A DNA stretch of 22,134 nt from a virus, in IMG/VR virus record IMGVR_UViG_3300042691_001672, positions 1 to 22,134 of that record. The stretch is one strand, 5' to 3'. Of the stretch, positions 4,860 to 21,405 are shown in pieces; the stretch's first letter is position 1; each line of letters opens with the position of its first letter. Below the pieces are notes generated by a model. That model had not been told where the DNA came from and made no database searches. It worked only from the letters and a program-made list of their open reading frames with translations. The translations under genes were made by a program, and so were the position numbers.

Positions 4860-6584
4860 TTAATTGAACTTGATGATGACTATGCCGGAGCCGCCGTTGC
4901 CGCCAACATTGGGATAATTTCCACAACCGCCGCCACCGCCGCCAGTGTTTGACGTTCCGGCAGTCCCGTTTCCAGAAGCATTAGTGACACCAGCGCCACC
5001 GCCGCCTGTTCCGCCAGTTCCTCCGGTTCCGGGGCTTCCTGCTGCTCCGCCGCCGCCGCCTGCATATGTTCCGCCGCCTAATCCAGCAGAGACAGACTGA
5101 CCAGCGCCGCCGTTGCCGCCGTTATTGTTAGCGCCAGAAATGCTTGCGCCAACTGCGCTTGCACCGCCGCCGCCAGCCCCGCCATAATAACCAGCAGATG
5201 TAGTAGCGCCGCCGCCATTGTTGCCCTGACCCGGTGTTCCCGGACCAGCAGTTCCTGCCGCTAATGGAGAAGCATCACGGCGAGCAGCGCCGCCACCAGA
5301 ACCGCCACTTAATCCACTTAAATAAGAAGTGCCGTATGTTCCAGCGCCACCGCCGCCTGTCGATGTGATTGAGCTAAATACCGAATTAGCTCCAGAGCTT
5401 CCTGTAGTGGCATAAGTAGCAGAAGCCGATCCGGCACCACCCGCACCTACAGTAACGGCATAAGAACTACCAGCAGTTACGGATAAACTCGTTCCAGTTA
5501 AGAACCCTCCAGCACCACCACCGCCGCCAAGCTGACCACCACCACCACCACCCGCGACAACAAGATAATCAACGGATGTGCAGTTATTGGGTATCGTCAC
5601 CGTTCCCGATGAATAGAAAATGGCGAGCGAAGATGCGGGTTGGGTGTAGGATAGAATGACTATACCCGATCCACCAGATGATGTTGTATAAGACGCGCCA
5701 TATGCTCCGCCGCCACCGCCACCGCCTGTGTTTGCAGAGCCATTCGCGCCCACGCCTGTGTAGCTGCCATTGCCGCCGCCGCCAGTGCCGCCTGACGCAC
5801 TATTAGGCCCAACAGTTGTATTACCTCCGCCGCCGCCACCGCCAGCATAAGTGACCGAAGAACCGCTTATTGAAGAGGCGGTTCCATTTCCGCCATTACC
5901 TAATTGATTGCCTCCGTTTGTCCCTGCCGCCGATGCGCCGCCCCCTCCTGCGCCGCAATATGGAGGATTATAAGAAGGACAAATACCACCACTTGTTCCT
6001 TGTGCCGGTGATGTTGCTGGATTACTTGAACCAGCCGCAGCGGTTGCGGCATTAACAGAAGATGCGCCACCACCAGACCCCCCATCAGCACCATTCGATG
6101 TTGATGTTTGTGGCGATGTATATCCTCCTCCACCGCCCCCACCTGTAGAAGTGTAAGCAGAATAAGGCGCAGAGCCTATAGCAATATAACTATCTACTCC
6201 ATTGCCTCCTCTAACACCACTTGCCGCACCAGCGTAAGAGCTACCAGATGCTCCCGCGCCAACTTGAATTGTATAAGATGTTCCGGGAGTTACAGTTATG
6301 CCCGTTCCAATTCTAAAACCACCTGCTCCACCGCCACCAGCTTGACCGCCGCCGCCGCCGCCGCCGCCGCCGACTATGAGATAATTGATGCTTGTCACTC
6401 CCGTCGGCGCGGTCCAGTTACCAGATGCGGTAAAAGACTGAATAACCGTAGCAACAGGAAATGGCCAAATGCCTTGGCTGCGATAAATTTGCTCTGCCAA
6501 TAAAGACCAAACACCAGAAGCAGATGTTCCTGTCGGCGTATTATTGGGGCCGATTATTCCGCCATTTATGCGCCGCTCACCCAT
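4860..6584 (-). CDS. Glycine-rich tail fibre/adhesin, two modules (574 aa)
   Basis: The N-terminal 65 residues are non-repetitive (MGERRINGGIIGPNNTP, then GVWSLLAEQIYRSQGIWP at about 24-41, a motif I recall from many environmental phage tail proteins) and probably attach the protein to the tail. Two Gly_rich-type modules follow, each running from YLIVGGGG or YLVVAGGGG to a closing SGIVIL/SGIVII strand, with YTIQVGAG or YAVTVGAG strands and many GGGGG blocks. Such poly-Gly stretches can pack as polyglycine-II helices, as in the gp38 receptor-binding adhesin of phage S16. Host recognition at the fibre tip is the likely role. It is a shorter paralogue of 8982-12452. The start overlaps the upstream stop as TAATG. 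Confidence 0.8.
   Translation of the reverse strand: MGERRINGGIIGPNNTPTGTSASGVWSLLAEQIYRSQGIWPFPVATVIQSFTASGNWTAPTGVTSINYLIVGGGGGGGGGQAGGGGAGGFRIGTGITVTPGTSYTIQVGAGASGSSYAGAASGVRGGNGVDSYIAIGSAPYSAYTSTGGGGGGGYTSPQTSTSNGADGGSGGGASSVNAATAAAGSSNPATSPAQGTSGGICPSYNPPYCGAGGGGASAAGTNGGNQLGNGGNGTASSISGSSVTYAGGGGGGGNTTVGPNSASGGTGGGGNGSYTGVGANGSANTGGGGGGGAYGASYTTSSGGSGIVILSYTQPASSLAIFYSSGTVTIPNNCTSVDYLVVAGGGGGGQLGGGGGAGGFLTGTSLSVTAGSSYAVTVGAGGAGSASATYATTGSSGANSVFSSITSTGGGGAGTYGTSYLSGLSGGSGGGAARRDASPLAAGTAGPGTPGQGNNGGGATTSAGYYGGAGGGGASAVGASISGANNNGGNGGAGQSVSAGLGGGTYAGGGGGAAGSPGTGGTGGTGGGGAGVTNASGNGTAGTSNTGGGGGGCGNYPNVGGNGGSGIVIIKFN
6346..6372 (-). repeat. (CCG)9 trinucleotide tract in the glycine-rich fibre gene
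   Basis: Nine tandem CCG units on the plus strand encode a run of nine glycines (residues 72-80), almost all GGC codons. Unit-number changes would lengthen or shorten the poly-Gly block without a frameshift. Confidence 0.9.
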
Positions 6585-8981: not shown

Positions 8982-11900
8982 CTATGCAAATACTACAGTT
9001 TCGTCTGTGGTTGATGTAGCGGTTACGGTGTAAATGTTATAGCCAGCCGTCGCCGTGGACAAGGATGCGGTTACGCCGCTGGAGAAGACAGCCTTAACGG
9101 TGTTTGGAATTTTAATGATGACAACGCCGGAGCCGCCTGTGCCAGATGTAACACTGCCAGCATGACTGTCTGCACCACCACCGCCACCGCCAGTGTTTGC
9201 TGTTCCACTAACAGCTGATCCGGTATTAGCACCTGCGCCACCGCCACCATTGCCGCCAGCGCCAGTTACTGAGCTATATGTGCCACCACCACCGCCACCG
9301 GCGTAGTAAGTTGCTGACCCTGTAATAGATGATTGAACACCAACGCCGCCAGTTGCGTTACCAGAACCAGCTGGTGTTGTGCCAGCGCCACCAGCGCCGC
9401 CACCGCCACCACCGGACGTTCCGGCAAGATTACTTGGAGTATTTACAGCACCATTGCCACCGCCAAAACCTTGATTTGTAGTGCCAGAACCGCCCGGAGT
9501 TGCCGGACCACCGACTGAGCCCCCGCCACCGGAGCCACCTGTGACACCGCTTGTTGCAGTTCCTGCAACATACGAACCGCCGCCGCCGCCGCCAATTGAT
9601 GTAATGGTAGAAAATACAGAGTTGTTACCACTGCCACCAGTTGTAGATGCACTAGCAGTGCCGCCTGCGCCCACAGTTACAGTGTATGAAGTTCCTAATG
9701 TAAGAGTTAATGAACTTTCAGCAGATGCGCCTCCCCCAGATGTCCCCGCTGATGTTCTAAAGCCACCAGCGCCGCCGCCACCGCCGTAATATAAGCCACC
9801 ACCTGCGCCACCACCAGCAACCACAAGGAAGTCAGCAGTCGTCGTTGATGAATTGGCCTTAAACGTCACCGTCTCGCTGGTCGTTGATGTCGCGGTTACG
9901 GAGTAGATGTTAAATCCTGATGTCGCGGTGCTAACGGTCGCCGTAACGCCGCTGGAGAACTGCGCGCCGTATGTGTTGGGGAGCTTTAGGACGACAATGC
10001 CGGAGCCGCCGGAAGCGCCATTGGTGTTAGGAGAATTACCACCGCCACCACCGCCGCCGCCTGTATTAGCTGTTCCGGCAACAACTGCCCTAGATGCATG
10101 GCCGCCAGCGCCACCACCGCCTGTGCCGCCTGTGCCGCCAGCTGTTTGGCTTTGGTTACCGCCACCGCCGCCGCCTGCATAAGTAGATCCTGTAATACTA
10201 TTGGTGCTGGAACCTGCGCCGCCATTACCAGCGGTATTGGAAGACGATGCACCGCCTACCGCGCCTGCGCCGCCACCGCCACCGCCTTGGCTGTTGCTAG
10301 GCGCAGTAACAGCGCCAGCGCCACCGTTATTTCCTTGACCTGATGGCGATGCGTTACCCGCGCCACCTTGATAACCTCCACCACCGCCAGAACCACCATT
10401 GCCACCTGCGGTGCTTGCAGCGCCAGAACCGCCGCCACCGCCGCCTGTAGAAGTAGTCCCAGAAAAAACAGAATCACTACCATTAGTGCCATTGCTACTT
10501 ATAGATGAGCCCGGTCCACCTGCACCAACTGTTACGGTATATGCTGTATTGACAGATAGCGATTGAGTTGTAAGTGCGCGGTAACCACCAGCGCCACCGC
10601 CGCCTTGACCGCCGCCATTTGCACCACCACCACCACCACCACCCGCGACGACGAGATAATCCATCAGCACACCCGTCGCAAAGGACACGGTCTCGCTTGT
10701 GGTTGATGTCGCGGTTACGGAATAGACGTTGTAGCCAGCGGTCTGGGTTATTGAAGACGTAACGCCGCCTGAGAAAGAGGCGACGATGTTGTTTGGAACT
10801 TTAAGGATGACGATGCCGGAGCCGCCTGCGCCGCCTGTCTGGTTTGAACCAGAAGACCCAACTGAGCAACCACCGCCACCGCCACCAGTGTTTGCCGTTC
10901 CTGCGGTGCCAGCATTAGATGGCGAAGCACCAGCCGCACCACCACCACCAGAGCCGCCATTGCCAGCCGTTCCGCCAGCATATACGCCGCCACCGCCGCC
11001 GCCTGCGCGTGTTACTGAAGATCCCGAAATTGACGATGCTGTTCCTGCGCCGCCTGCACCGCCAGTAGTTGATGTTCCATTGCTCCCAACAGCACCAGCA
11101 CCACCGCCGCCACCAGAGCCGTAATTAGGGCCAACATTGCCTACGCCATCGCCGCCTTTACTACCTTGAGATGGCGATGTGCTTGGCGTGTTACCCGCTG
11201 CGCCTGTGCCAGTATTGCCAGCGCCACCACCACCAGAACCACCAGCTAACGCTCCATTACCAGAATTAGCACCGCCGCCACCGCCGCCTGCAGATGTTAT
11301 TGTAGAGAAAACAGAGTTGTTCCCAGAACCACCTTGACCTCCGGGAGCTCCTGCTGCTGGACCAGCATTTCCTCCACTACCAACTGTAACGGTATATGGC
11401 GTAGAAAGAGAGAGATTTTGGCCTGTAAACTCACGATAGCCGCCAGCACCGCCGCCGCCGCCGCCCCACGAGCCAGCAACGCTGCCACCACCACCACCAC
11501 CACCTGCGACAACGAGATAGTCAGCAACAATACCGGGATTGAAGGATACGGTCTCGCTGGTCGTGCTTGTGGCCGTTACGGTGTAGACGTTATATCCAGC
11601 AACAGATGTGCTTACGGAAGACGTAACGCCGCCTGAGAATGTTGCGGTGTAGGTATTGGGGACTTGCAAAATAACAACGCCAGAGCCGCCTGTGCCGCCA
11701 GAACCTCTGGTATTTGATGGCGCGGTCCAACCGCCGCCTCCTCCACCGCCGCCTGTATTTGGAGAACCGGATGTTGCTGTAGTTGCGCTAGTCGAGCCTG
11801 CTCCACCGCCGCCAGAGCCGCCTGTTCCGGCTGTTCCACCGCCATATGTTCCACCACCACCGCCGCCTGCACGGGTTACGGGAGAGCCAGTTATTGGAGA

Positions 11901-12452
11901 AGCAGAACCTGCTCCACCATTGCCGCCTGCTGGTCCCGTGCCAGCCGCGCCTACCGCACCAGCACCACCACCGCCACCAGAGCCATAAAAAGGACCAACA
12001 TTTCCAGACCCTAAACCACCATCGTTACCTTGCGATGGTGTAGTAGCTGGCGTATTCCCTAATCCAATAGACCCAGATACGTTACCGGGATTTTGTATAT
12101 AGCCAGCGCCGCCTCCAGAACCGCCATCCTTACCATTGCCTTCAGAGCCGGGAGAAATACTTGTCCAAGCACCGCCACCACCGCCACCGTTTGTGGCTAT
12201 AGTGCTAAAAGCTGAATTATTTCCAGTTGTCCCTGCTGTGTTATCAGAGGTTGAACCACCACCACCTGCACCTACTGTGACAGTGTAAGAACTACCTGCT
12301 GCAATAGATAAAGTGCTTGCTAAATATCCACCAGCACCACCGCCACCTGCTTGCCCACGGCCACCACCGCCGCCTCCAGCGACAACAACATAGTTGGACA
12401 GGAAGGTAGCACCGCCGCCTTGGCCAACAAGCATATGCATAATGCCGGACAT
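8982..12452 (-). CDS. Giant glycine-rich adhesin/tail fibre, four modules (1156 aa)
   Basis: After a short lead (MSGIMHMLVGQGGGATFLSN) the protein is four copies of a module of about 280 residues. Each module opens with DYLVVAGGGGGG or similar, has a YTVTVGAGG strand and a VFSTITSxGGGGGG turn, several Gly blocks, and closes with SGIVILKVPN. Modules are joined by a linker of about 45 residues ending in YNVYTVTATSTTSETVSF. The protein stops inside a fourth linker (ends TTDETVVFA), exactly where a fifth module would begin. Gly_rich-type modules and polyglycine-II packing, as in S16 gp38, suggest an elongated surface-binding fibre. Start and upstream stop overlap as TAATG. There is no obvious signal peptide, which fits a virion protein. 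Bacterial surface adhesins use similar modules, but the context is phage. Confidence 0.85.
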   Translation of the reverse strand: MSGIMHMLVGQGGGATFLSNYVVVAGGGGGGRGQAGGGGAGGYLASTLSIAAGSSYTVTVGAGGGGSTSDNTAGTTGNNSAFSTIATNGGGGGGAWTSISPGSEGNGKDGGSGGGAGYIQNPGNVSGSIGLGNTPATTPSQGNDGGLGSGNVGPFYGSGGGGGAGAVGAAGTGPAGGNGGAGSASPITGSPVTRAGGGGGGTYGGGTAGTGGSGGGGAGSTSATTATSGSPNTGGGGGGGGWTAPSNTRGSGGTGGSGVVILQVPNTYTATFSGGVTSSVSTSVAGYNVYTVTATSTTSETVSFNPGIVADYLVVAGGGGGGGSVAGSWGGGGGGAGGYREFTGQNLSLSTPYTVTVGSGGNAGPAAGAPGGQGGSGNNSVFSTITSAGGGGGGANSGNGALAGGSGGGGAGNTGTGAAGNTPSTSPSQGSKGGDGVGNVGPNYGSGGGGGAGAVGSNGTSTTGGAGGAGTASSISGSSVTRAGGGGGGVYAGGTAGNGGSGGGGAAGASPSNAGTAGTANTGGGGGGCSVGSSGSNQTGGAGGSGIVILKVPNNIVASFSGGVTSSITQTAGYNVYSVTATSTTSETVSFATGVLMDYLVVAGGGGGGGANGGGQGGGGAGGYRALTTQSLSVNTAYTVTVGAGGPGSSISSNGTNGSDSVFSGTTSTGGGGGGSGAASTAGGNGGSGGGGGYQGGAGNASPSGQGNNGGAGAVTAPSNSQGGGGGGAGAVGGASSSNTAGNGGAGSSTNSITGSTYAGGGGGGNQSQTAGGTGGTGGGGAGGHASRAVVAGTANTGGGGGGGGNSPNTNGASGGSGIVVLKLPNTYGAQFSSGVTATVSTATSGFNIYSVTATSTTSETVTFKANSSTTTADFLVVAGGGAGGGLYYGGGGGAGGFRTSAGTSGGGASAESSLTLTLGTSYTVTVGAGGTASASTTGGSGNNSVFSTITSIGGGGGGSYVAGTATSGVTGGSGGGGSVGGPATPGGSGTTNQGFGGGNGAVNTPSNLAGTSGGGGGGAGGAGTTPAGSGNATGGVGVQSSITGSATYYAGGGGGGTYSSVTGAGGNGGGGAGANTGSAVSGTANTGGGGGGADSHAGSVTSGTGGSGVVIIKIPNTVKAVFSSGVTASLSTATAGYNIYTVTATSTTDETVVFA
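8985..11670 (-). repeat. Four direct repeats encoding the linker between glycine-rich modules
   Basis: Near-identical segments of about 130 bases lie at roughly 8985-9120, 9858-9996, 10683-10812 and 11537-11670. Each codes for VPN...(A/S)xFS(G/S)GVT, then GYN(V/I)Y(T/S)VTATSTT(S/D)ETV. Spacing is about 820-875 bases, the module length. They look like footprints of tandem module duplication and offer substrates for in-frame recombination. Confidence 0.8.

Positions 12453-13146: not shown

Positions 13147-13147
<1 letters not shown>
12452..13147 (-). CDS. Beta-rich tail/fibre protein (231 aa), unknown
   Basis: The start at 13147 (MSQITLNGDTSNYVAIATPT) is preferred to an in-frame ATG 15 bases upstream because it overlaps the collagen-gene stop as TAATG. 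The opening 'ITLNGDTSNYV...TLTLPQNVPSSSGSFL' and the phrase GVASWTTNTFP are typical of phage fibre shaft or tail collar proteins. The C-terminal half (PPVGTKTGSYSLAVADVGKYV..., then GSITIPD...GDVISIFNNTSGNITI) looks like a small beta domain often found at the end of such proteins. It shares the Ser/Thr/Ala composition of its neighbours and stops overlapping the giant fibre gene, so it may be the baseplate-proximal part of that fibre. Confidence 0.75.
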
Positions 13148-14517
<1,370 letters not shown>

Positions 14518-18084: not shown

Positions 18085-18101
18085 GATTCTCTCCGAAGAA
18101 C

Positions 18102-18130
18102 CGACGGGATTTCTCGAAAAAACCCCGTCG
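18102..18130 (-). terminator. Intergenic hairpin, 11-bp stem
   Basis: Minus strand: CGACGGGGTTT and AAATCCCGTCG pair (10 Watson-Crick plus one G-U) around the loop TTTCGAG. It fills the 63-base gap between two small basic genes. There is no U-run after the stem in the transcribed direction, so it is a weak terminator candidate; an RNA-processing or stability element is just as likely. Confidence 0.5.
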
Positions 18131-18147
18131 ACTTTGTCACCGACAAA

Positions 18148-18390: not shown

Positions 18391-18855
18391 TTAGGCGTTG
18401 TTTGCTTGGATGTATGTGACGATGAGCTTGCCTGCGCCAGGTGTTGCACCAGGAGCGCCGCTATCTACCCAGATAGCAACGTCAGACGCGCCAACATCCT
18501 GCCAAACGCCAGTGCGGGTAGCGTCAGTGCCTGGATTTAAAGACAGGACGCCAACAGCATTCGCATTCGTCGAGGCAACAAGTTCAGTTGCTGTCGAAGA
18601 CGTTCCAACGCTTAATGTGTAAGTCGTCGTCGCGCTTGACCATGCAACATCAACAAGAACAGTAATGCTAACAATCGTGCTGTTTGCAGGAATTGTAATT
18701 GCAGTCTGCGCTGATGTCGTTGACTGAACAATGTCAGCCGTTTGAGCCATTAAGCAAAAACCAACATTCTTGATTGAACCAACTGTTGTGCCAGTCGTAT
18801 CAAGAACGTCTCCAGCTTTTATGGGGCCGGTGAACGTAGTCGTTCCCATTTTCAT
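18391..18855 (-). CDS. Capsid-region structural/decoration protein (154 aa)
   Basis: It reads MKMGTTTFTGPIKAGDVLD, then NVGFCLMAQTADIVQSTT, then ITIPANSTIVSITVLVD and, near the end, AGKLIVTYIQANNA. The 'TTFTGPIKAG' opening and the TIPANSxIxxIxVxVD strand recur in virion proteins encoded just after capsid genes in aquatic phages; I take it as a decoration or head-fibre protein. The AAGGAG ribosome site is only 4 bases from the first ATG but about 10 from Met3 (18849), so Met3 may be the true start. The HNH gene ends 24 bases before it. Confidence 0.75.
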   Translation of the reverse strand: MKMGTTTFTGPIKAGDVLDTTGTTVGSIKNVGFCLMAQTADIVQSTTSAQTAITIPANSTIVSITVLVDVAWSSATTTYTLSVGTSSTATELVASTNANAVGVLSLNPGTDATRTGVWQDVGASDVAIWVDSGAPGATPGAGKLIVTYIQANNA

Positions 18856-18879
18856 TTACTCCTTCTGCACAAGGTTTAA

Positions 18880-19584
18880 TTACGTCGTCTGTGCAGCGTC
18901 CGCTTGGCCGGTCGACGTAACTGATGTTCCAAGATTTTTATTGGAAGAATGCTTCCTAATATAGTCGGCAGCCGCCAATAAAACTTCTACATTATCCTTT
19001 GCCTGTCCCAGCATGCTGTTGCAAGCATAGCATAATAATTCACGCACGGCACCTGTATCGTGGCAATGATCTACCGCTAGATCTTTTTTAGTTCCGCGAT
19101 AATCCATCGTCGTCTCAGGCTGATGGCAAATAGCGCACTTACCATCTTGCTTGCGATACATTTCGGCGTAATCACCAATTGAAATGCCATAATAGCGCAT
19201 CAATCCGTAATGACGCTGTTGGTCCTTACTCATTTTATAGCCGACAGAACCATCTTCTTTCAAAACTCTTTCGGCTTTATGATCAGCCATTTTCAAGTTA
19301 GAAATTTTAAGATTTTTCGTATCGTTATCTATAAAAAACACAGATCTATCTGGCCATTTGCCGTAATAAAGAAGCCATGCTGCCTGAGCTCCGGATATTT
19401 TTCTTCCACGATATGTGATGGAATAATAATCCTTGCCATTTTGCATTCGCTGCCAAACGCCGGCGCGTTGACCAACTTGAGCCCTGGAGCTTGTTGACAC
19501 TTTCCAGGTAAAAGAACCTGTTTCAGCATCATAATCCAGAACCTCTGATAGACACTCAAATGTCAGATCAACATTTTTTACCAT
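18880..19584 (-). CDS. HNH endonuclease, endonuclease VII-type, with degenerate N-terminal HNH_3-like domain (234 aa)
   Basis: Residues about 139-212 form a recombination endonuclease VII-type domain: Cys150/Cys153 (CAIC) and Cys185/Cys188 (CYAC) for zinc, catalytic D172-H173 within DHCHDTG, and Asn189. Residues about 8-100 resemble the HNH_3/NUMOD architecture of phage homing endonucleases: LDYDAETGSFTWK, ISGAQAAWLLYYGKWP, then FFIDNDTKNLKISNL. In that second motif the usual D-H-I-D of HNH_3 is replaced by F-F-I-D, so the N-terminal site is probably dead and kept for DNA binding. The gene has its own promoter and sits between capsid genes, which fits a free-standing mobile endonuclease. Its tail after residue 212 is Ser/Thr/Ala/Gln-rich and unlike either domain. 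Confidence 0.88.
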   Translation of the reverse strand: MVKNVDLTFECLSEVLDYDAETGSFTWKVSTSSRAQVGQRAGVWQRMQNGKDYYSITYRGRKISGAQAAWLLYYGKWPDRSVFFIDNDTKNLKISNLKMADHKAERVLKEDGSVGYKMSKDQQRHYGLMRYYGISIGDYAEMYRKQDGKCAICHQPETTMDYRGTKKDLAVDHCHDTGAVRELLCYACNSMLGQAKDNVEVLLAAADYIRKHSSNKNLGTSVTSTGQADAAQTT

Positions 19585-19619
19585 TTTGTAAATCCCCTTC
19601 TCTTTTATTAGAGTTAGAG

Positions 19620-19647
19620 ATTATACTTTAGATAAATATAATGTCAA
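19620..19647 (-). promoter_or_regulatory. Consensus sigma70 promoter for the HNH gene
   Basis: Minus strand: TTGACA (19642-19647), 16-base spacer, TATAAT (19620-19625). Both hexamers are perfect. The predicted start lies about 30 bases before the HNH ATG, and an AAGGGG ribosome site follows. This is the strongest promoter seen in the window. Confidence 0.8.
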
Positions 19648-19655
19648 TCTGACAT
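19641..19655. promoter_or_regulatory. Palindrome ATGTCA-N3-TGACAT overlapping the -35 box
   Basis: A perfect 6-bp inverted repeat with a 3-base centre. The -35 hexamer TTGACA of the HNH promoter lies inside its right arm. It could be an operator through which a repressor silences the endonuclease gene, but no binding protein is encoded here and a 6-bp arm can arise by chance. Confidence 0.4.
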
Positions 19656-19663
19656 TTATATTT

Positions 19664-19701
19664 ATAACTCGCTGCATTCTTTTTAAAATACAGCGAGTTA
19701 T
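19664..19701 (-). terminator. Strong hairpin just after the capsid gene
   Basis: Minus strand: ATAACTCGCTGTATT and AATGCAGCGAGTTAT pair over 15 bp (one G-U) around an 8-base A-rich loop, starting 6 bases after the capsid stop codon. The downstream side is A/T-rich (AAATATAAAT) but not a clean U-run; on the plus strand the stem is followed by TTTATATTA. It probably ends or protects capsid mRNA and separates it from the HNH promoter. Confidence 0.65.
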
Positions 19702-19707
19702 TTTATA

Positions 19708-20619
19708 TTAGGTTGGGAAAGAACCAAATATTGAACGCCAATTATAGTATCCAAAACTATAACGTTCATAGCCCTTCACCAAAAGGTTGTCAGTCACAAA
19801 ATCGACTTGCATGTCGGTCTCGAACTTTACACGTTCCATGTAAGACAGACCGTCAATGTTGGTCAGCAAGAACCAAGCAGATGCAGACGTCAAGAAGTCG
19901 TTGACCATGTAACCTTCAGGCAAGCCGCCTGCAGTCATCATGATCGCATTGACGTCGTTGTCCGCTGTGCCTGGACGCAATTCAGTCTTTGTAAGACGAA
20001 TTGCAGTTGGCTCGAGAGCTGGCGGAACAACAAGACGACGACCGCGAGCAAATACTTTAAGACCAGCTTGGTCTTTAAAGTTTGTTCTGATCGAGATCAT
20101 TGCGTTAAGCAGCGTGCTCTCATTGAGATCCACATCAACTGCAGGACGGTTAGCAACCGTGCCGCCATCGATTGGATGGTTCGTTGCAATAAGAGCAACG
20201 CCGTCACCGCCGACAGAAGCATTATACGTCGTGGCCGTGTTCAACACGTTCGCGCCGTAAATTTCTTTTGTCTGCTGGAACGATTCAATGAGGCCGAGGT
20301 TCGACGGCATAAACTGTGACTTATACAGGTTATCGTCGATTGCCTTACGCGTAATCGAATAGCCGAGAGCAATTTCAGTGTGCTCTTGGTTATAGACGTA
20401 GCGTTCACCTGCGGCGTTATCAAACGACGTTTGAGCGCCTTCAGTTTTCAGCTGAGCAAGACCCAAGAAACGCATTTCCGCAGTGCGCTCAAGCGCCATT
20501 TTGGAATCATGTTTCGTGAAGATCTTGTCGTATTGAGATGGGATCATCTCATACTTGCCTTCTATCCCACGGAGACCGGGGAGGAGAAGGTCTTTGATGG
20601 CAGAGAGATTAACAGCCAT
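19708..20619 (-). CDS. Major capsid protein, Mu gpT-like (HK97 fold), 303 aa
   Basis: Length matches Mu gpT (about 305 residues). Motifs fit the 'major head subunit gpT-like' family: MIPSQYDKIFTKHDS (25-39), EIALGYSITRKAIDDN (82-97), ALIATNHPIDGG (142-153) and RLVVPPALEPTA (195-206). In the virion it would form the icosahedral shell. The upstream gene ending at 21983 has a Mu protease/scaffold-like C-terminus, which fits the Mu I-then-T order. The start (MAVNLSAIKDL) has an AAGGAG ribosome site; a long hairpin follows the stop. The HK97 fold is inferred from the family. Confidence 0.82.
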   Translation of the reverse strand: MAVNLSAIKDLLLPGLRGIEGKYEMIPSQYDKIFTKHDSKMALERTAEMRFLGLAQLKTEGAQTSFDNAAGERYVYNQEHTEIALGYSITRKAIDDNLYKSQFMPSNLGLIESFQQTKEIYGANVLNTATTYNASVGGDGVALIATNHPIDGGTVANRPAVDVDLNESTLLNAMISIRTNFKDQAGLKVFARGRRLVVPPALEPTAIRLTKTELRPGTADNDVNAIMMTAGGLPEGYMVNDFLTSASAWFLLTNIDGLSYMERVKFETDMQVDFVTDNLLVKGYERYSFGYYNWRSIFGSFPT

Positions 20620-21217: not shown

Positions 21218-21330
21218 GACGGGTTCTCCTTATATAGGAGGCTCATCATCGCGCGCCGGGGCGATTATAGAACCGGAAGATTGTTAATGCTCCACGCCGG
21301 GGGAGCTCGAGCTGTTAAAAGCTTATGTAT

Positions 21331-21359
21331 ATTATCGCTTGACAAGGCATAAAAGTAAA
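21331..21359 (-). promoter_or_regulatory. Candidate promoter for the decoration-capsid unit
   Basis: Minus strand: TTTACT (21354-21359), 17-base spacer, GATAAT (21331-21336). The -35 overlaps the tail of the preceding terminator. A second perfect -10 (TATAAT, 21264-21269) lies nearer the gene but lacks a good -35 box at 16-18 bases. Either could drive the decoration and capsid genes. Confidence 0.45.
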
Positions 21360-21379
21360 GGGGCCGGCGAACCGACCCC
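21352..21379 (-). terminator. Rho-independent terminator with TTCG tetraloop
   Basis: Minus strand: GGGGTCGG, loop TTCG, CCGGCCCC, then TTTACTTTT. The 8-bp stem has one U-G pair and is closed by C(UUCG)G, an exceptionally stable tetraloop. It lies 26 bases after the stop of the 188-residue gene and separates it from the decoration-capsid unit. Confidence 0.8.
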
Positions 21380-21405
21380 TCAAACCATAATTCTTACCAG
21401 AGAAA

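Follow-up and report, generated by a model that had tools for sequence, protein, structure and literature searches.

A homing-type endonuclease gene beside a structured leader RNA upstream of a probable phage cement gene

Described systems and layout of the locus

The free-standing homing endonuclease genes of phage T4 (seg and mob) are intergenic, show a presence/absence distribution and are found near the capsid gene, with segD located between genes 23 and 24; promoters, terminators or RNA structure restrict their expression (PMC2988022). In ICP1-like phages, nuclease genes (HEGs) are located at the boundaries of genetic exchange and are clustered near essential genes, including that for the capsid protein, and one locus can house different HEGs (PMC10448857). 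The endonuclease gene described here is mobile and of a known kind, but its setting beside a leader RNA is new. It differs from the T4 genes in that it abuts and overlaps the leader RNA of the downstream gene, is inserted in sense orientation behind a perfect promoter, and encodes a nuclease of the EndoVII type. Whereas the HEGs of ICP1-like phages reside in introns or gene neighbourhoods, the site occupied by this gene is fixed and borders an RNA element on its 5' side.

Pseudoknots that are located directly upstream of a Shine-Dalgarno sequence (SD), or overlap it, are present in the leader of T4 gene 32 and in riboswitches of the SAM-II and preQ1 types, and the RNA discussed here has the same position. 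It shows no sequence or model match to these RNAs and has two pseudoknots that cross around a single stem of 9 bp. To our knowledge, little is understood of how tailed phages control the stoichiometry of capsid and cement proteins. We consider it quite probable that the locus combines a promoter-bearing homing endonuclease gene with the adjacent leader RNA of a cement gene, and that this RNA most likely controls the initiation of cement translation.

The window, i.e., the whole stretch of DNA that was analysed, is a virus record of 22,134 bases with its structural genes on the minus strand. The endonuclease gene is flanked by the following features:

19708..20619, minus strand: major capsid protein gene (PHROG 371 major head protein, E=3e-12; weak match to Pfam Mu-like_gpT, E=0.0026)
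19664..19701, minus strand: hairpin 3' of the capsid gene, 15 bp (14 Watson-Crick pairs and one G.U) with an 8-nt loop and without a U-tract
18391..18855, minus strand: capsid cement (decoration) protein gene, assigned by an AF2 model with Foldseek and by the annotation of DSL-LC04

The capsid protein has more than 597 relatives among viral contigs. The hairpin behind its gene is clearly structured (local fold z -9.2 for region 19640-19710), and its 11 perfect base pairs were equalled in none of the shuffles. An earlier note on this DNA had counted it in one cassette with the promoter and the HNH gene. The hairpin does exist, but its membership of the cassette is not clear, because alleles that lack the insert have their post-capsid terminator at the same position. 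The note had also stated that almost all other genes abut or overlap; most do abut, but there are further gaps at 18085-18147 and 21218-21405. The latter, 188 nt long and located upstream of the gene that precedes the capsid gene, is accompanied by a 10-bp terminator-like hairpin on the minus strand (21358-21381). Elsewhere in the window, 4860-6584 and 8982-12452 encode very long, Gly-rich proteins with Ala/Ser repeats (574 and 1156 aa), which are probably fibre-like and have long open frames antisense to their genes, and a 456-aa collagen-like protein with GPTG/GATG repeats is encoded within the structural operon (13147-14517).

The cement gene likely starts at its second ATG (18847-18849), as in relatives. 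The best PDB matches of the AF2 model of its product (pLDDT 81) are the cement protein of cyanophage Pam1 (7eel_H; Foldseek E 8e-5) and a chain of the Ralstonia phage GP4 capsid (8h89_J; E 7e-4). The structural alignment with the Pam1 protein, which has the same fold, shows 20% identity. In phage DSL-LC04, the gene at the same position is annotated "cement protein".

The endonuclease gene and its mobility

The insert comprises the following features:

19620..19647, minus strand: predicted sigma70-type promoter of the endonuclease gene, TTGACA-16-TATAAT, with perfect boxes
19640..19656, no strand assigned: 7-bp inverted repeat AATGTCA-ATC-TGACATT over the -35 box, within chance
19594..19600, minus strand: SD-like GAAGGGG of the endonuclease gene, found by sequence inspection
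18880..19584, minus strand: endonuclease gene (234 aa), with a degenerate HNH_3-like N-terminal half and an intact EndoVII nuclease

The perfect promoter noted earlier before the HNH gene is indeed the only one in the window (19647-19620), with 0.00 expected from shuffles. Promoters of the sigma70 type, predicted from sequence, recur 5' of divergent endonucleases at this site: the non-redundant sum score of the insert promoters is 199 against 174 +/- 5.4 in shuffled sequences, and none of 200 shuffles scored as high. The palindrome that overlaps the TTGACA box is present as described, but the label "operator-like" fails, because 7.7% of shuffles of the same AT-rich stretch match it (p 0.077) and it is absent from the cassettes of L084 and L085, the endonucleases of which are 65% identical to that of the window. 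A role as operator was therefore rejected. In the autorepression of I-TevI, an operator that is related to the homing site overlaps the promoter; the palindrome of the window has the same position, yet it is at chance level and not conserved.

The earlier assignment of the product as HNH/EndoVII was confirmed. It matches Pfam Endonuclease_7 with an E of 3e-23, and a weak match to HNH_3 falls just under the cut-off. The signature CxxC...DH...CxxCN (C150, C153, D172, H173, C185, C188 and N189) is invariant in the endonuclease alignment, which marks the product as a homing-family nuclease whose active site is intact. According to the alignment, the N-terminal HNH_3-like half appears to have lost the usual catalytic histidines and is probably DNA-binding.

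Alignment of the capsid gene junction with relatives lacking the insert, as the earlier note had proposed, yielded its borders. Among more than 200 loci of capsid relatives, the spacing between the capsid stop codon and a conserved block downstream of it has a bimodal distribution in the clade of the window (47-67 bp or 760-870 bp); it is 70-200 bp or 700-2025 bp in other clades. The sequence common to empty and filled alleles begins at CCTTGG and continues rightwards to the SD of the next gene. At this one site, the insert is absent from L004, L018 and L002 and present in L081 and L001. In the three empty alleles, the proteins of the upstream gene are 94-95% identical to that of the window, and the cement proteins are 94% (L004), 90% (L018) and about 60% (L002) identical. 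After deduplication, the window-like capsids comprise 64 empty and 19 filled alleles in a sampling that was not random.

The ancestry of the endonuclease is uncoupled from that of its flanking genes. In L081, the endonuclease gene is 98% identical in DNA to that of the window, at 89% for the capsid and 86% for the cement gene; in L024, with flanks that are 84% and 91% identical, the insert is an unrelated endonuclease. L067/L160 and L123 contain deletion scars, in which an endonuclease is reduced to its start and its last codons. Moreover, different endonuclease families occupy the same site in other loci: a second EndoVII architecture (L172, L168, L183 and L134), GIY-YIG enzymes (L150 by Pfam; L425 and, more weakly, L133 by homing-endonuclease families of PHROGs), the DUF723/DUF4379 type (L146 by Pfam; the similar L373 is a homing/HNH endonuclease by PHROGs), and other HNH types (L203, L439, L411 and L324). 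A few inserts at the site, i.e., those of L289 and L313, are not endonucleases, which counts against the explanation that we prefer.

The EndoVII domain with all its catalytic residues would also suit a domesticated resolvase that serves packaging or recombination, is immobile and merely happens to be located here, and an HNH nuclease can be a component of the packaging machinery, as in HK97 (discussed in PMC10448857). However, this is very improbable for a gene that is absent in close relatives with similar neighbourhoods, is replaced by unrelated families and is seen as deletion scars. The proposal that the gene is a mobile, separately promoted, intergenic endonuclease within a structural operon is thus upheld by the empty alleles, the uncoupled identities, the scars and the recurrent promoters, and by its sequence features the window gene qualifies as a putative free-standing homing endonuclease.

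The leader RNA

The conserved block downstream of the insert contains an RNA element with the following parts:

18859..18933, minus strand: structured leader RNA of the cement gene, with helices P1, P1b, P2 and P3 in a double pseudoknot, defined by covariation
18929..18933, minus strand: 5' strand of P1, CUUGG, pairing with CCAAG in the loop of P1b; right-hand border of the endonuclease insert
18913..18921, minus strand: 5' strand of P2, GUUACGUCG, pairing with 18879-18887
18900..18911, minus strand: hairpin P1b, CCG[GCCAAG]CGG, the loop of which forms P1
18890..18896, minus strand: 5' strand of P3, CUGCACA, pairing with UGUGCAG at 18865-18871
18879..18887, minus strand: 3' strand of P2, which holds the endonuclease stop codon UAA (18880-18882)
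18859..18871, minus strand: 3' strand of P3, leading into the cement-gene SD GAAGGAG

P1 crosses P2, and P2, with its 9 bp, crosses P3. The RNA model R1 matches 18837-18936, including the first codons of the cement gene, with 83.6 bits and an E of 4e-20, the window copy being one of those used in building R1. The stem of P1b is CCA/UGG in L079 and CAG/CUG in L015. With a program that does not handle pseudoknots, the best nested fold of the window copy is no more stable than those of shuffles, and minimum-free-energy z-scores of single copies were set aside as uninformative.

The earlier note had called the cassette self-contained; its 3' end is superimposed on the structured leader of the next gene, which had gone unseen. 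The endonuclease frame runs on into the RNA block (..NLGTSVTSTGQADAAQTT) and ends at a TAA within it, so that the last ~19 codons are encoded inside the element. The inserts in other loci, unlike this one, end before the block. The C-terminal tail may be a passive read-on into the RNA, and the very low confidence of residues 217-234 in the structure model fits with this. An apparent mosaic is found in L001 (5683-5775, compared with 18837-18936 of the window): an endonuclease of the window type and the 5' half of the RNA are joined to a different 3' half, P2 is still paired via a G.U, and the cement protein is 60% identical.

In an alignment of 88 sequences, made without reference to structure and scored over 23 pairs, 96.9% of the cells are paired and 16 of the 23 pairs have changed on both sides. 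Cells with double changes number 328, as compared with 30-47 in slid controls; thus, compensatory covariation beyond the controls marks a conserved structured RNA. An independent test used a model of the P2 and P1b pairs only, leaving out those of P1 and P3, and loci fetched with the capsids of Pelagibacter phage HTVC023P and phage DSL-LC04. This model matched 41 of the 80 HTVC023P-capsid loci and 63 of the 80 DSL-LC04-capsid loci, with most matches 60-200 bp downstream of the capsid gene. In this way, 96 copies were added, almost without exception at the orthologous site. When strands were exchanged between sequences in 61 of the added copies, which have differences of more than 15%, P1 and P3 scored z values of 11.6 and 13.7, with 0 of 1000 swaps as good. 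The helices are wholly different in sequence between clades, e.g., UGCACA, GUAUAG, UAGUAG, ACAUGC and GCCUAG for the 5' strand of P3, and the unpaired GAC, GGAC and AGAC of the core are near-invariant. Many relatives have an additional hairpin at the start codon, such as GUUCC-UAUG-GGAAC or GCUC-UUAU-GAGC (again 0 of 1000 swaps as good); it is missing from the lineage of the window.

The RNA is present in many uncultured phage contigs, in the cultured Pelagibacter phage HTVC023P and in phage DSL-LC04. It was not detected in about a quarter of the close capsid relatives, many of which have a plain ribosome-binding site before the cement gene; therefore, it is dispensable in some lineages. Nor was it detected in Planktothrix phage Pag-Yong1, the capsid region of which is related. 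Bacterial genomes gave 43 pattern matches, nearly all without the helices and rejected as chance matches in GC-rich DNA; the helices are present in L229, L231, L234 and L242. Pelagibacter phage HTVC027P contains a weak copy (L277 4470-4563; E 0.0027 in a local search, no match for the whole record), located before gp62 and some 560 bp downstream of the capsid gene, with P2 and P3 paired and TGTATAAT upstream. It is likely a divergent member of the group.

No family of Rfam 15 matches the RNA, at gathering or at permissive E-value thresholds, and membership of a known family was rejected on these grounds. The gpT-like capsid had suggested Mu-gpT-DE (RF03012; membership threshold 49 bits), but no match was obtained in the window or at the RNA of the relatives searched. 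A match of 72 bits is located in Roseobacter phage CRP-901 (L273 3994-4046), directly before the gene that follows the capsid gene. Thus, Mu-gpT-DE is likewise a structured RNA that separates a gpT-like capsid gene from its downstream neighbour, and its place in CRP-901 corresponds exactly to that of the leader described here. It is 53 nt long with different helices and conserved letters, and R1 and RF03012 show no convincing cross-match. These data suggest that Mu-gpT-DE is also a cement-gene leader, which would give this orphan motif a likely context. No report of such a cement-gene leader was found in the open-access literature, and the RNA is apparently undescribed, although an earlier description elsewhere is possible.

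Could the block be conserved as DNA, i.e., as a site for endonuclease recognition, recombination or packaging? The core sequence is highly conserved, and the recombination breakpoint of the L001 mosaic is apparently located inside the block. However, this is extremely improbable, as hundreds of compensatory cells are found in crossing helices, which a DNA cruciform cannot form together. Moreover, the element has a fixed strand and position relative to the SD and AUG and to the -10 box, and it is present in lineages without any endonuclease.

Function of the leader and position of the inserts

The RNA is tied to the cement gene rather than to the capsid gene. In L012, the cement gene is located upstream of the capsid gene and the RNA has relocated with it. 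Since the RNA follows the cement gene when the gene order changes, the possibility that it is a 3' untranslated region of the capsid gene was rejected. Most copies precede a start codon whose product contains a [TS]xFxGP-like motif. In L022, the downstream gene shares only the N-terminal motif TTFTGP. One phage contig of ~61 kb (G024) contains two copies (L419 1077-1172 and L442, near 1209-1304), both before genes starting with MSA, and THYSGP occurs in the product of the second gene.

In distant clades, TATAAT-like -10 boxes cluster at positions -13 to -10 upstream of the RNA, which therefore probably forms the 5' end of their cement mRNAs. A self-cleaving ribozyme or a processing signal could also set this end, and compact topologies with two pseudoknots are frequent in small ribozymes. 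Yet, there is no match to a ribozyme in Rfam, and the start site is already predicted at the 5' end of the RNA in the distant clades, which makes such an activity very improbable. More weight is due to a passive role, in which the RNA would stabilize the 5' end of the mRNA of a highly expressed gene or serve as a ribosome standby site or insulator, without any switch. Such a role would fit its position, which immediately precedes a strong SD and, in distant clades, is predicted to be the start of the cement transcript. However, the unpaired GAC...GGAC...AGAC is near-invariant across very different helices, which suggests a specific tertiary core or a binding pocket, and we regard a passive element as rather unlikely.

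Our preferred reading remains that the RNA controls the initiation of cement translation. The order in the leader would be the double pseudoknot of P1, P2 and P3, then the SD and, in many relatives, the start-codon hairpin. As P3 extends up to the SD and a hairpin often encloses the start codon, folding of the RNA should compete with access of the ribosome to the cement gene, and it is because of this presumed competition that translational control is considered most likely. The state of the RNA could be set by a metabolite, by a protein, such as the cement or capsid protein, or by kinetics alone. The endonuclease gene was probably inserted between the capsid gene and the cement leader by homing-type recombination, with cleavage of empty alleles as the presumed step. 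Several endonuclease families would thus insert just 5' of the RNA, leaving it intact and doing no harm, probably because the RNA is well-conserved DNA in the region and is used as the target. In the window, ribosomes that finish the endonuclease frame would unfold the RNA and could switch cement translation on.

With slightly less than even confidence, we extend this proposal to a new class of double-pseudoknot RNA that controls cement synthesis in a large group of phages including HTVC023P, and the DNA of which is a landing site for unrelated families of homing endonucleases, one of them with its stop codon inside the RNA. A conserved cement-gene leader in a cultured marine phage and in many uncultured ones would make the control of capsid-to-cement stoichiometry directly testable, and the repeated invasion of one spot by different endonuclease families places homing genes beside, rather than inside, a functional RNA. 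Inserts were found in 19 of 83 loci with the RNA and in none of 17 without it (Fisher p 0.037); this association is only suggestive, because the loci were partly sampled by RNA and endonuclease and phylogeny was not controlled for.

Some inserts show further structure at their own starts. In four inserts of the second EndoVII architecture (L172, L113, L194 and L097), the SD GGAGGAG is held in the stem of a strong hairpin and a U-run touches the start codon, which resembles the RNA-sequestered ribosome-binding sites of T4 homing endonucleases. In L080, the SD and the start of the insert lie within an inverted repeat of 11 bp.
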